Source: Selenomonas sp. TAMA-11512
Lineage (GTDB): Bacteria; Bacillota; Negativicutes; Selenomonadales; Selenomonadaceae
DNA length: 64,000 nt
NCBI RefSeq assembly: GCF_037076525.1
Contig: NZ_AP029018.1
Coordinates: 1,575,001-1,639,000, forward strand
Reading direction: 5' to 3'
This document shows positions 55,572 to 64,000 of the stretch, one piece after another; position 1 is the stretch's first letter; each line of letters starts with the position of its first letter. The notes under the pieces were generated by a model that was not told the origin of the DNA, made no database searches, and was given only the letters and a program-made list of their open reading frames with translations. The position numbers and the translations under genes were made by a program.

Positions 55572-56175
55572 ATGGTCGAGAACTTTGACAAGATGCTTGC
55601 AGGATCACTGTGTCTAGAGGATCCGTCGTATATCATAGGCGCAGAATTTAACGAGAAAAAGTCGGCAATCCATATCATGTGGGCGTAGACAAGGTGGTCG
55701 CGCTATGCTGTCCTGCCTGCGGTGCATCGGCCAAACGGTATGGTTACGAGCCGAAGGAGCGAATTTGACGTCATGCGGACTGCCTGTTTTATCCCTGTTA
55801 TGTCCACTGCAAACGCCCCCCGTCTTCTCTGCGACAAATGCGGTGTCGTGCAGGTCAACGCGCCATTTGAGCGCAAGAAGTCGCTTTAGTTTCGCTATGA
55901 CGGCGCAGTGACAGTCAAACGCCGTGTCTTCGATGTCGAACCTGGCCGCGACAAAGCGGCTGTCAAGAACATGGGCGAAAAACTCGATACGAGCGGCGGC
56001 AACACGAAGCGCGTCAGCTCTGTCACCAGCGACATATCCGCAAGCTATCTGCCCGCCGTCAGGGAAGTGTTTCCGAACGCCAAGCAACCCATCGACAAAT
56101 TTCACGTCAAACAGGGTTTTCTCAAAGCCTTGGATGAGGTACGTAAGGACGAGCAAAACGGCAAAAGCCTTGATG
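55572..56175 (+). pseudogene. ISL3-family transposase remnant (5' and middle parts, decayed)
   Basis: From ATG 55572 the frame reads VENFDKMLAGSLCLEDPSY, then stops and shifts several times through a CPACGASAKRYGY-like zinc motif in another frame. From 55908 a long open stretch resumes with RVFDVEPGRDKAAVKNMGEK and SYLPAVREVFPNAKQPIDKF with HVKQGFLKALDEVR, typical of the ISL3 central domain. It joins IS30 sequence near 56175. No intact terminal repeat was found. Confidence 0.75.
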
Positions 56176-56722
56176 AGTGTCCTGATGAAGTAAACCAACG
56201 AAAAGAATTCGGACATTGGGAGATTGACTCGGTTGTTGGGCGCAAGGGAACAAAGCCCATCCTTCTGACACTGGTCGAAAGGAAAACGAGGAAATCCATC
56301 TATGTGCTGGTAAAAGACAAGAAGCAGAAGGAAGTGATACAAGCGCTCCGACGAGCACAACGGAGAGTCAAAGGAGATTTTACACAAGTGTTCAAAAGCA
56401 TCACGGCAGACAATGGAACGGAGTTTCTTGACGGAGAGGGACTGCGAGAGGCAGCTAAGTGTGATGAGGTGTACTATGCGCACCCATTCAGCAGTTGGGA
56501 AAGAGGAAGCAATGAGAACGGGAACCGCATGTTGCGCCGATGGCTTCCGAAAGGGACAGATTTCAGTACAATAAAGCCGAAGGCGCTGCAACAAATCGAG
56601 GATTGGGTCAACAACTACCCACGCAAAATCTTCGACTATAAGACGGCAAATGATATGTATGCAGAGGCTATATCATGTATCAAAGTTTAACTGAACCTAT
56701 GCGACAATTAAACTTGCAATTT
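56176..56722 (+). pseudogene. IS30-family transposase 3' half, fused in frame to ISL3 remnant
   Basis: NQRKEFGHWEIDSVVGRKGT, LLTLVERKTRKSIYVLVKDK, SITADNGTEFLDGEGLRE, YAHPFSSWERGSNENGNRML and the end YAEAISCIKV are the DDE half of an IS30 transposase (first D, second D and E all present). The N-terminal HTH half is missing, replaced by ISL3 sequence in one open frame 55908-56690. The right terminal repeat ends at 56722 and abuts an IS200 remnant. Confidence 0.85.
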
Positions 56723-56930
56723 ACTATTTTGGCGTAAATACGATGTGATACTTGCATAACCACTTTGTGTGCGATAGACTATTAGCTTTCTGTGCCATAA
56801 GCACCTTTCTGTATACTGGCTTGAACAACCTTATATACTACGGGGAAAGATGTTTTTGGTATAACCTATTGTCTTCCACCCGCATAGCGGGTGGTTTATT
56901 GTGTCGCATACGTTGCATGCAACACTAGGT
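56723..56930 (-). pseudogene. IS200/IS605-type element remnant with tnpA start
   Basis: On the minus strand an ATG at 56798 begins MAQKANSLSHTKWLCKYHIV then FTPK, the N-terminus of IS200 TnpA, and is cut after 24 codons by the IS30 end at 56722. Upstream, the perfect hairpin CCACCCGCATAGCGGGTGG (56876-56894) is the subterminal structure expected of such elements. The catalytic HUH and Tyr parts are gone. Confidence 0.85.
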
Positions 56931-56942
56931 CGCGACCCATAA

Positions 56943-56973
56943 CAAAAAAGCTGCCTGCAAAGCCCGGCAGCTC
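56943..56973 (-). terminator. Rho-independent terminator of the TPP riboswitch
   Basis: On the minus strand AGCTGCC, an apical loop, GGCAGCT and then TTTTTTG. It lies about 25 bases downstream of the TPP aptamer, the usual arrangement for transcription attenuation. No gene follows it. Confidence 0.85.
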
Positions 56974-56994
56974 TTTCGAGATCCTCAGAAAACC

Positions 56995-57082
56995 ATCACT
57001 TCCCTACGCAGGTATTAACCAAACAGGTTCCAAGGGTCGGCTTCGTCATGCGCAAGCCTCTCAGCAAATGCTCCCCCAGTGG
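56995..57082 (-). ncRNA. TPP riboswitch (THI element) without a downstream thi gene
   Basis: Minus-strand sequence has the conserved aptamer parts in order: CACTGGGGGAGC, GCTGAGAGG, GACCCTTGGAACCTG, GGTTAATACCTGCGTAGGGA and a closing AGTG that pairs with the first CACT. These match the thi-box core for thiamine pyrophosphate. A promoter lies upstream and a terminator downstream, but the next sequence is an IS200 remnant, not a thiamine synthesis or transport gene. Confidence 0.93.
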
Positions 57083-57105
57083 ATTCATATTCTTTTGACA
57101 AACTT

Positions 57106-57133
57106 ATTCTATCATGAACAACCGAGAAGTCAA
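57106..57133 (-). promoter_or_regulatory. Sigma-A-type promoter of the TPP riboswitch
   Basis: On the minus strand TTGACT (57133-57128), 16-base spacer, TAGAAT (57111-57106), placed about 25 bases upstream of the aptamer. Confidence 0.7.
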
Positions 57134-58833: not shown

Positions 58834-59510
58834 TCACTGCATTACACGCTTCAACAATCCCTCGAAATCCTTCACATGCTCATAGATCACACAATCTCCA
58901 TGCAGTGTCTCAAAGAGACGCTTCGCACACTTGATCTTTGCCTTCTCAATGGGGCTGATATCGAGTGAGGAGAGCGATCCTTTCGTCTCCGCAACGAAAT
59001 AGATATTCTTCATCGTGCCCTCACGAAAGACGATCGCCCAATCCGGAGCGTAGTTTCCGACGGGGGTTGGGATCGCAAAACCGCGCGGCAGCTTCGCATA
59101 AATCAGCACCTCGTCTCTGCCGTCGATCGCCTCAGCAAACTTCCGCTCCACCTTACTGTCCGTGAACACATAGTCCTGGATTGCCCGATCCGCCGCATAC
59201 GCTTCCGCGATAGGACGTTTCTCTGTCGTAAAGATATGTGCATCGTAGCTGCCCTCAATCATATCATATGCGATGTGGTCAACAATGCACGTCACCTTTT
59301 TCTCAAGGATGAGGCACGTCTCCGTACGGATGAAATCCTCGGAATTGTTGCACTAGCTCGCAAAGGCCATAGGTTTTGTCCCCTGTAAAATTGTTGCCAC
59401 CGTCCCCCGCGTGAATCGTTATCCCATTGAAGAACAACACATCCCGCGCGCGGACAACCGCCTTCCACTGCATCCGCCTGATACGGCTGCAGAGTAAAGT
59501 GAAATTTCAT
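58834..59510 (-). pseudogene. Type III restriction endonuclease subunit Res, internal deletion remnant
   Basis: The 5' end (ATG at 59510) reads MKFHFTLQPYQADAVE, a type III Res N-terminus. The 3' part, EDFIRTETCLILEKKVTCIV, then GSYDAHIFTTEKRP and NYAPDWAIVFREG with FVAETKGS, is the C-terminal PD-(D/E)xK nuclease domain. The helicase body (several hundred residues) is missing and the pieces are in different frames. The nuclease motif survives in an open frame of 153 codons from 59295, probably not functional. Confidence 0.82.
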
Positions 59511-60523
59511 CGCTCTGCATCCTCTTCCATTCTGGCAGATTTCAGTGCCTGATATTCATGGCGAATCTCTTTACTCAACTCTTCCTCACTTGGGAGATAT
59601 AGCTTATACTTCGAGGCAAAAATCTGTGTTTCACCCTCCGGCAGCGTATATCGCACAACCGCATCACTTTTATCTGCACAAAGAACAATGCCGATCGGCG
59701 GATTGTCTCCCTCATTCATCAACTCACGCTCGTAGTAATGTACATACATCTGCATCTGACCCAAATCTTGATGCGTTAAATCACCAACCTTCAAATCGAT
59801 CAGAACGAAACACTTCAAAATATAATTGTAAAATACAAGATCGATACGAAAGTGACGCCCATCAAACGTAAAATGCTTCTGTCGTGCAACAAAGGAAAAG
59901 CCCCTGCCGAGTTCCAGCAAAAACTTCTACAAATGTGTAATAAGCACTTGCTCCAAGTCGCTCTCATAAAAATCATCACGCGGGGATAGACCAAGGAATT
60001 CCAGTACATACGGATCGCGAATCAAATCCTCCGACGTTTTAGAAGCCTCCAAATGAAGCACTTCTTTCCCCACAGCTTCCTTATTCTTGCTGGAAAGCAA
60101 TCGTTCATAGAGGAACGAATTGATTTGCCGATCCAGTTGACGCGTACTCCATTGAGATGAGACTGCTTCTTCCATATAAAATAAGCGTGCAGCCTGATTT
60201 TCCACACGCATAAGCAGACGATAATGCGTCCAGCTCAATTCGCTACGCAGTGCGTAGCCATTTGGAAAAGTCAAATAGAACTGTCGCATATTCTTTAAAT
60301 TTGCCACAGTAAAACCTTTCCCAAAATCTGCTGTCAGTCGAGCAGACAGCTCCTTCAGCAGTCCGACGCCATATTCTGCGCGCTCTGCCCCGCCTTGCTC
60401 CACGACAATGGATTTGCCGATCTGCCAATAGGACTCCACCATGGCAAAATTCGCAGCCTGATATGCTCTGTTTCTGGCGGATGCAAGTATTTTTTTAATC
60501 CCCTCATAGAACTTGTTATTCAT
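59507..60523 (-). pseudogene. DUF1016 (YhcG-like) PD-(D/E)xK nuclease with an in-frame amber stop
   Basis: One reading frame from ATG 60523 to 59507 encodes about 338 aa. The N-terminal DUF1016 part includes FYEGIKKILASARNRAYQAA, MVESYWQIGKSIVVEQGG and ELSWTHYRLLMRVENQAARL; the C-terminal nuclease includes FTFDGRHFRIDLVFYN, FVLIDLKVGDLTHQDLGQMQ and YVHYYERE. A TAG at 59929-59927 interrupts it at ITHL-stop-KFLLELGRG, where Q or another sense codon is expected. Both halves are otherwise open. Such genes usually accompany restriction-modification loci. Confidence 0.85.
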
Positions 60524-60803
60524 AGAGCCCCTCATCCATCTCCCCCTGCAGCACGCACAGCTGCTGTACAAGAGCAACCTTTTTCTTCGGCTGCTTCTCC
60601 CGCGCAATCTTCCCTTCGAGTGCGGCGATCTGTTTCGCGAGACGCTCTCTGTGCACCTGCTCCGCGACGCGCTGCTTGAGCGTTACAGCGGTATCAGCCC
60701 CGAGTGCTGCGCCTGCAATGCGGCGGACGAGGTTCTCATAGACGACGTCCATCGACAGCCCCTCGAGCCGCAGCGTGATTGCCTTCTGAACAAGGAAACA
60801 CAT
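60516..60803 (-). pseudogene. DUF4391-like protein, N-terminally truncated
   Basis: 95 codons containing AITLRLEGLSMDVVYENLVR and ALEGKIAREKQPKKKVALVQ with QLCVLQGEMDEGLYE, which resemble the C-terminal part of DUF4391 proteins found between mod and res of type III systems. The usual N-terminal half is missing. Its apparent ATG shares a base with the hsdR stop (TAATG), so it may be translated by coupling, but I regard it as a fragment. Confidence 0.65.
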
Positions 60804-63800
60804 TATTCCTTCCCGTACGTTGCTGGCTTGCCATCTGCAGCGATGGGGACAGAGTCTCCATGCCGTGCCAGCAAATCGTATCGGACAGATGGCTCTTCCA
60901 AAACGCCACTGTACTTCTTGAAATTCTCTGCTTGCTCCATCACCTGTTCAAAGACTTCCTCGTTCCACTGGGGCGGGTAGCCGTTGTCATAGAGGAGGAT
61001 GGTGAGTTCCATGTCAAGCTGGTTCTTGATGTCGTCGCGCGTAGACCAGTTGGCGAATTTCGCTTTGTCCTCCACAAGCTCTTTGATTTTCTTAGCCAAG
61101 ACGATACACTTCTCATCCTCGTATGGAAAATCGTGCGTGTCGCGAACCTTGGTCAGTATGTCGAAAAACGCCTTTTCCTCGAATGAAATCCCCATCTTCT
61201 CAAAAGAAGCTTGATCTTCCTGCATATCCTTCAGGATGCCGATCAGCCGGTCAGAGAGGTCGTTGACGAAGTCCGCCACCACTTCGCTGGTAAAGGCCAG
61301 ATTGTCACGATTGTTGTATTCCTCCACGACCTTTCGCAGTCGCTCGTCAAATTCCACGGACTTCACCTTGTTCGTGCGTCCATAGGCAGTGATGGCTTTT
61401 CGCACCATTTTTAAGAGGGCGTTGAACTTCGTGATGGGGAGTTTCACCGCGTCGGCTTCTCTCAAGAATTCCTCGCTGAACATATCGACGGCTTTGCTTT
61501 CGCCCACGATGTTGTCTATGCCGGTGCAGGCAAGAGCCTCTTGCACCATGCGTTCCACCACCTGATTCATGACTTCCGCATCCGGCGCGTCGCCCTTGGT
61601 CTGCTTGTAGATGATGGAGCGGATGGCGAGATAGAACTGCGCCTTGGCCGTTTCGTCACTCGTCAGTTCTCCGGAGGGATAGCAGATAATGTAGGCGGCC
61701 TTCAGCCTTTGGGACAGCCCCATGAAGCGCGTCTGCCGCTCCTTGCCCGCTTGCACGAATTCAGCGGCATCATTGAGGCAGTTCAGCCTTTGGAGAGGCC
61801 TCCCCTTGAAGAAGATCGAGGCATCGAAGCCGACCATGAGTTCGTCCAGCATGGCGAGATGATTGCGGAAGATGGAGAGGGATATGGGCAGTTCATCCAC
61901 GGGATTTTCCTGCGGGCCTCCATACTTTTTGACAGCTTCCAACATATCGTTCTTGATGCCGATATAATCGACTACCAAGCCATGGTCTTTGCCGTCGAAT
62001 ACACGATTGACGCGGGAGATGGTCTGGATCAGGGTATGCTTCTGAAGCGGCTTGTCGATATACATGACAGCCAGCGACGGAACATCGAAGCCCGTGATCC
62101 ACATATCCACCACGACGGCAATCTTGAAATTGGAATCGTTGTTCTTGAAGTTCTCGTCTAGGGTTTTGCGATATTCCTTCGTGCCGCAGGCGTCGAAAAG
62201 CGTCTTTTCGTCGTTCGCGCCTTGCGTCGCCACGAGATTGATTTTCGGCAGGGCGAGGAGCTTGTCGAGTCGGTCTTTCGGAAGATTGCCTTCCTCGTCC
62301 GCTTTATGCGCCTCGCCCCATTCGGGGCGAAGAAGGGTGATGGCTTTCAGCACCGCAAAGGCGATCTTGCGGTCGGCGCAGACAATCATGGCTTTTTGCA
62401 CCACTTGCGGCTTTTCGGCGCAAAGAGATTCGTAGTGCTGCACGATGTCGGCGGCGAGTTTCTTAAGACGGTCTGGATGACCGAGGATCGCCGTCATTTT
62501 GCTCATCGCTCGCTTGCTCTCTTCGATTTGCTCGAATGTCGAGCCTTGTTCGGCACAGCGTGCATAGTATTTCTCGATTTCCTTCGCCTGCGCATCGGAG
62601 ACGATGACCCGTGCCAGACGCGGCTCATAGGCGATGCGTACGGTGATGCCGTCATCGCTGGATTCCTTCATGGTGTAGCTGTCCACCACACCGCCGAAGA
62701 CGGCGATGGTCTCATCGATGGGCGTGCCCGTGAAGCCCGCATAGGTGGCATTGGGAAAACCGCTTCGAAGGTAGTGGGCAAAGCCGTAGGTGGTGAAAAC
62801 GCCCTTGTCGGTCTTCTTGAGCTTCGCGCCTACTCCCGTTTGCGTGCGATGTGCCTCATCGGAGATGCAGATGATGTTGTTCCGGTTGGAGAGAAGCCCC
62901 GTCTTCTCGCAAAACTTCTGGATAGTGATGATATAGACGCCGCCGCTCCGGCGGTCTTTCAGCGTCTTTGCCATGTCTTCGCGATTCTCGATGCTCCGCA
63001 CATCGTTGTCGCGCAGATAGCGTTTCGCCGTGACAAAGAGCCTGGCAGTCTGCGTGTCCAAGTCTTCCCGGTCGGTGAGGATGATGATGGTGGGATTTTG
63101 AAAGAGAGCGTTGTCCCGCAAGGCAATAAGACGTGAGAGAAAGAGCATCGTGTAGGTCTTGCCGCAGCCCGTTGCGCCGAAATATGTGCCGCCCTTGCCG
63201 TCGCCTAGAGGGCGCAGATGCGCCTTGATATTCGCCAGCATCTTGTTGGCGGCAAAAAACTGAGGATAGCGGCAGACAATGGCTTCCTCCTTGCGGCTGT
63301 CGTCGGGGTAGAAGATGAAGTCCCGCAGCAGTGCGGTCAGGCGGTCTTTGGCAAAAGCCCCCTTTATTATGGTGAAGAGGGAGGAGATGCCGTTCGATGC
63401 CTTGTCATGGTCATTCGCCTTGTTCCACGAGTAATAGTAGGCATACGGCGTGAAGATACTGCCCATCCTGGTGTTCGCCCCGTCGCTGAGAACGGAGAGG
63501 AAAGTATACTTCATCAACCGGGGAATATCTCGGCAGTAACGGATGCAGATCTGCTCCCACGCATCGTGAATGGTCGCCTCTTCATTGATAGCGGATTTGA
63601 ACTCAAAAATCGCCACGGGAATTCCGTTCACGAAAACGAGCAGATCGGGGCGGCGCAGATGTTCCCCCTGCACAGAGTATTGATTCACCACACGGAAGCA
63701 GTTGTTCTCAGGCACGTCAAAATCCATGCAGTCTATATGGAGAGCCACGGCTTCGGCATCATCTCGCGCAAGGTCGAAGCCCTCGTCAAAAAGACGGAAG

Positions 63801-64000
63801 GCTGTGCGATTGCCGATATAGAGAGGGGCCGTCTGGATATGCTCCAGGCGATGGATGATTTTCGTCATTTCCGCTTCGGAGAGATGCGCCTCGGCATAAC
63901 GATGGCAAAGGAAATCCCGCAGATCATCTTTCAGCAAAATTTCTTCATAGCTTCGATGGAGCATACTGCCGTTCGTATAGGCGTAGCCCTCCTCCCGGAA
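60803..64000 (-). CDS. hsdR: Type I restriction endonuclease subunit R, 5' end beyond window
   Basis: The frame is open from the right edge to the stop at 60803, so the N-terminus is outside; the ATG at 63964 is internal (FREEGYAYTNGS precedes it in frame). Nuclease motif: RRPDLLVFVNGIPVAIFEFK. Motor: GATGCGKTYTM (Walker A), ILTDREDLDTQT, CISDEAHRTQTG (DEAD-like II), FTGTPID (III), MWITGFDVPSLAVMY and QTISRVNRVF (VI). HsdR translocates and cuts unmethylated DNA with HsdM/HsdS, not visible here. It follows a different restriction type (III) whose remnants lie directly downstream. Confidence 0.95.
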   Translation of the reverse strand, partial: FREEGYAYTNGSMLHRSYEEILLKDDLRDFLCHRYAEAHLSEAEMTKIIHRLEHIQTAPLYIGNRTAFRLFDEGFDLARDDAEAVALHIDCMDFDVPENNCFRVVNQYSVQGEHLRRPDLLVFVNGIPVAIFEFKSAINEEATIHDAWEQICIRYCRDIPRLMKYTFLSVLSDGANTRMGSIFTPYAYYYSWNKANDHDKASNGISSLFTIIKGAFAKDRLTALLRDFIFYPDDSRKEEAIVCRYPQFFAANKMLANIKAHLRPLGDGKGGTYFGATGCGKTYTMLFLSRLIALRDNALFQNPTIIILTDREDLDTQTARLFVTAKRYLRDNDVRSIENREDMAKTLKDRRSGGVYIITIQKFCEKTGLLSNRNNIICISDEAHRTQTGVGAKLKKTDKGVFTTYGFAHYLRSGFPNATYAGFTGTPIDETIAVFGGVVDSYTMKESSDDGITVRIAYEPRLARVIVSDAQAKEIEKYYARCAEQGSTFEQIEESKRAMSKMTAILGHPDRLKKLAADIVQHYESLCAEKPQVVQKAMIVCADRKIAFAVLKAITLLRPEWGEAHKADEEGNLPKDRLDKLLALPKINLVATQGANDEKTLFDACGTKEYRKTLDENFKNNDSNFKIAVVVDMWITGFDVPSLAVMYIDKPLQKHTLIQTISRVNRVFDGKDHGLVVDYIGIKNDMLEAVKKYGGPQENPVDELPISLSIFRNHLAMLDELMVGFDASIFFKGRPLQRLNCLNDAAEFVQAGKERQTRFMGLSQRLKAAYIICYPSGELTSDETAKAQFYLAIRSIIYKQTKGDAPDAEVMNQVVERMVQEALACTGIDNIVGESKAVDMFSEEFLREADAVKLPITKFNALLKMVRKAITAYGRTNKVKSVEFDERLRKVVEEYNNRDNLAFTSEVVADFVNDLSDRLIGILKDMQEDQASFEKMGISFEEKAFFDILTKVRDTHDFPYEDEKCIVLAKKIKELVEDKAKFANWSTRDDIKNQLDMELTILLYDNGYPPQWNEEVFEQVMEQAENFKKYSGVLEEPSVRYDLLARHGDSVPIAADGKPATYGKE

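Follow-up and report, generated by a model that had tools for sequence, protein, structure and literature searches.

An orphaned TPP riboswitch in a Selenomonadaceae genome, very probably left behind by the loss of thiC

On the minus strand of the DNA analysed here (a stretch of 64,000 nt, the window), a TPP riboswitch leader is followed by pieces of IS200, IS30 and ISL3 elements in place of a thiamine gene. Features are listed in Table 1. The aptamer matches Rfam family RF00059 over its full length (model positions 1-105, all 105 covered; 60.0 bits against a cut-off of 54.3, E 3e-9), is the sole Rfam match above cut-off within the window, and contains the conserved core motifs CTGAGA, GAACCTG, TAATACC and GCGTAGGGAAG. 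The first-pass annotation had described a complete minus-strand thi-box aptamer with its own promoter and intrinsic terminator, followed by an IS200 remnant, an IS30 half and an ISL3 remnant with no thi gene among them, and all of these features were recovered. The promoter-like pattern is weak taken alone (5 found, 3.1 expected by chance), but -35- and -10-like boxes occupy the equivalent position in most homologous thiC leaders, and the site is presumably active. The terminator folds at -20.4 kcal/mol (45-nt stretch), and about 98% of the control TTAT flanks are less stable; the hairpin is missing from the output of the pattern scanner, probably because of that program's limit on loop size. 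The predicted leader RNA is about 155 nt long, starting near 57099 and ending near 56944, and probably controls nothing downstream. In principle the leader should still bind TPP and terminate. The minimum-energy folds of the leaders that were tried all retain the terminator and show no clear antiterminator, so the switching step, and with it the presumed response to TPP, rests on the known behaviour of the riboswitch family.

Table 1. Features of the orphan leader and its surroundings (window positions), and the other TPP riboswitches of the genome (genome positions)
Feature	Position	Strand	Basis or remark
Promoter-like site TTGACT-16-TAGAAT	57106..57133	-	Pattern, and position in homologous thiC leaders
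TPP riboswitch aptamer, RF00059	56984..57087	-	60.0 bits
Aptamer core, P1 to P1	57081-56997	-	
Intrinsic terminator, 13-pair hairpin into T run	56943..56978	-	Folding; homologous hairpin in G029 and G175 thiC leaders
TTAT, target tetranucleotide of the IS200-like element	56939..56942	-	TTAT or close variant before the left end in other copies
IS200-like left end and first tnpA codons (start 56798), truncated	56725..56938	-	89-90% to other copies
IS30-type transposase gene, 3' half, with terminal repeat	56190..56722	+	rve domain; inner edge approximate
ISL3-type transposase fragment joined in frame to the IS30 half	55573..56190	+	PF01610; edges approximate
TPP riboswitch (genome)	387177	+	Precedes CytX-like permease (cytosine/purine/thiamine family)
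TPP riboswitch (genome)	2193611	+	Precedes thiM and a thiE-thiD fusion
TPP riboswitch (genome)	2554132	-	Precedes ykoF-type gene and ABC transporter genes (ykoFEDC)

The break behind the leader is sharp. TTAT starts one G past the T run of the terminator, and the IS200-like left end (GGGTCG...), fixed by comparing copies, begins exactly after it; TTAT precedes the left end in most IS200-like copies. Six copies in a relative, G029, and one further copy in this genome match the piece at 89-90% identity, and it is a 5' fragment of a type whose intact copy (L062:1355-1822) encodes a Y1 transposase (Y1_Tnp, PF01797, 141.7 bits). The tnpA fragment stops at 56725, adjoining the IS30 terminal repeat, the terminal 23 bp of which are present at two further sites in this genome. 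Beyond lies an ORF of 260 aa on the plus strand (55908-56690), a recombination product in which the ISL3 fragment is fused to the IS30 rve fragment. A further hairpin within the IS200 left end (56876-56894, CCACCCGC...GCGGGTGG) stands in the path of any read-through from the leader.

The client gene can be named from relatives. The comparison set comprised 189 family genomes, none of them a second member of this genus, and 48 genomes yielded a DNA match to the leader. In 47 of 47 other leader-bearing genomes thiC lies on the same strand, 37-257 nt downstream (median 68); this genome alone of the 48 has no thiC behind it. The closest leaders, those of G029 and G175, are 89% identical to the orphan from the -10 box through the T run and stand directly upstream of an intact thiC. 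Neither a Pfam profile nor a protein search found thiC anywhere in the genome, a single contig of 2,593,422 bases with a completeness of 100%. Because the same leader stands before thiC in 47 other genomes and thiC is absent genome-wide, the lost gene is named as thiC, and the orphan, judged by its sequence, is orthologous to the family's thiC leaders. An intermediate with an IS between leader and thiC was not seen among the family genomes compared, none of which is of the same genus, nor was a second orphan leader of this kind among the 189. The leader DNA pattern was also sought in named genomes, a set from which near relatives may have been left out, and gave no match; the thiC scan of named genomes returned only more distant Selenomonadaceae, e.g. 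Schwartzia and Selenomonas. Elsewhere in the family, a decayed thiC fragment in G083 (C1:175009-175176; 48% identity, two internal stops) adjoins no riboswitch and appears to record an independent loss in which no leader survived.

We therefore read the element as a thiC leader that has lost its gene, a relic that formerly acted as a TPP-off attenuator, was parted from its gene by IS elements and persists in a host relying on salvage; we hold this reading with high confidence. In the ancestral state, TPP binding would have let the terminator form, while without TPP transcription would have read through into thiC. An IS200-like element would then have inserted 3' of TTAT right behind the terminator, parting leader from gene; an IS30 element would have inserted into it, and recombination with an ISL3 copy would have removed the remaining IS200-like sequence together with thiC. 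The IS insertions are the likely cause of the loss, since the IS200-like end adjoins the terminator and is itself truncated by the IS30 and ISL3 pieces, and the order given is the simplest one that we infer from the junctions. The first-pass annotation had offered deletion of a thiamine gene by the insertions as one of two readings: the loss now stands, with thiC as the gene (47 of 47 other leaders, thiC absent genome-wide), and the insertions probably caused it.

What remains of thiamine metabolism in the genome agrees with such a loss. There are four TPP riboswitches, three with obvious client genes and the orphan as the fourth; the gene names CytX and YkoFEDC, and the role of these genes in HMP uptake, are taken from general background. 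No convincing thiG was found in the genome, weak TIM-barrel matches of about 27 bits or less being the only ones, as against 333 in G029. With thiC absent and thiG matches weak, HMP synthesis is gone and thiazole synthesis probably gone, and salvage remains. The bacterium would now depend on the other three TPP-controlled operons for salvaging HMP and thiazole.

The other reading in the first-pass annotation was that the short RNA is now made for its own sake. On that view the terminated riboswitch RNA would have been retained to act in trans, as a small RNA or decoy responding to TPP. The leader has an intact promoter-like site, aptamer and terminator, its T run is stronger than those of G029 and G175, the two nearest relatives, and trans-acting riboswitch RNAs occur in Listeria (SreA). 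Conservation was compared among the three lineages. The aptamer has 2 lineage-specific differences here, 3 in G029 and 4 in G175, so it decays no faster than in relatives that use it; 3' of the aptamer the counts are 8, 3 and 4, and the extra changes here include changes on both sides of the terminator stem that preserve pairing. An aptamer so well kept, with stem pairing preserved, is a counterpoint to the relic reading, but recent loss of thiC explains the undecayed aptamer equally well. The sequence conservation would fit recent loss with no new function required, and no signal of selection exceeds what recent loss predicts. With no second such orphan among the 189 family genomes and no positive evidence for an RNA made for its own sake, a role in trans is improbable. 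The RNA most likely has no function of its own.

Less probable still is a role in cis, in which the leader would act as a TPP-controlled terminator of transcripts entering the IS remnants and would, for instance, curb antisense RNA to the fused ISL3-IS30 ORF just downstream on the opposite strand; that ORF consists of two transposase fragments and is an implausible product, and the extra hairpin in the IS200 left end stands in the read-through path. Assemblies are prone to break at repeated IS pieces, but an assembly artefact hiding a thiC that is really present is the least credible explanation of all, given a complete single contig that lacks thiC everywhere and any convincing thiG and yet carries the salvage genes.

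The orphan leader can be set beside known systems as a relic of thiC loss. It shares sequence, aptamer core, promoter position and terminator with thiC TPP leaders that work by attenuation, and departs from them in having no downstream gene and an IS sequence starting a few bases past its T run. Like the SreA and SreB RNAs of Listeria it would be a terminated riboswitch RNA acting with no gene downstream; unlike them it is not conserved as an orphan and has no known target, and any trans function would be hypothetical.

The position of the IS200-like end raised the question of target choice. The left-hand flanks of several kinds of IS200-like copy, in this genome and in others of the family, were folded; the sample is small and holds only comparable copies. 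Folding is more stable than that of at least 97% of dinucleotide shuffles in 23 of the 26 flanks, where the hairpin stops 0-16 nt short of the IS. Another flank, L277, whose longer terminator is cut by the 48-nt stretch but can be read directly, raises the number behind an intrinsic terminator to 24 of 26. For the element type in the window, 9 of the 11 independent sites counted are at or below -16.9 kcal/mol, a level reached by 3.7% of all control TTAT sites and 6.7% of the intergenic ones. At the matching position in the sister genome, two of the sites carry the terminator but lack the IS, which makes the hairpin a host sequence. Terminator-adjacent IS200-like loci on the same strand are window 56938-56725, L061-L065, L170-L177, L260-L270, L274-L279 and L290-L292.

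A terminator preference as a general property of IS200 was considered and rejected, since in most of the other bacterial families tested the copies are not so placed. All three IS200-like flanks of G321 lie behind a terminator, whereas flanks at p<=0.05 number 1 of 6 in G312, 1 of 4 in G282, 0 of 3 in G293 and 0 of 2 in G214, which mostly lack the habit. This contrast between IS200-like groups argues against mere avoidance of genes, and the habit looks like a subgroup-specific target preference of IS200-like elements in Selenomonadaceae. The elements otherwise belong with IS200/IS605 (tnpA-only, Y1): the intact copy encodes a Y1 (HUH) transposase with a Y1_Tnp domain, insertion is 3' of a fixed tetranucleotide, and the left end is rich in hairpins. 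They differ from IS200/IS605 generally in the marked preference of this subgroup for sites behind intrinsic terminators, and the copy in the window is a fragment. Group IIC introns also insert behind intrinsic terminators; these are unrelated retroelements, and none was found here. A limited literature search turned up no description of IS200-type elements behind terminators, which is no proof that the habit is unreported; it may be one of the less well known.

If the targeting is real, the 3' side of a terminator is normally a harmless landing place behind ordinary genes. A riboswitch terminator sits before its gene, and elements that target terminators would there cut switch from gene. That this subgroup targets the 3' side of intrinsic terminators and so severs riboswitches from their genes, the orphan TPP switch being one product, strikes us as about an even chance. 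None of the 20 loci scanned with Rfam has another IS copy behind a known riboswitch, so this route to an orphan has been seen only once.

The DNA upstream of the leader, window 58834-63964, is a partly decayed restriction/defence island. A nuclease gene of YhcG/DUF1016 type is split there into an N part (59927-60607) and a C part (59507-59920), beside hsdR (60803-63964) and an ORF with an endonuclease domain (58834-59295). The thiC leader of G029 likewise follows immediately after a type I restriction locus (L059:445-6890), whose HsdR looks unlike the window's; the neighbourhood of the leader is perhaps a recurrent insertion place.

The orphan is a known TPP riboswitch lacking only its usual client gene, and such relics are to be expected wherever a pathway is lost. 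It is a nearly intact regulatory fossil, in which a bacterium without HMP synthesis keeps the switch and not the enzyme, and thiamine regulation inferred from riboswitch counts would mislead annotation here. A possible way to such a state is suggested as well, an IS200-like subgroup that lands at terminators and ends up between a switch and its gene.
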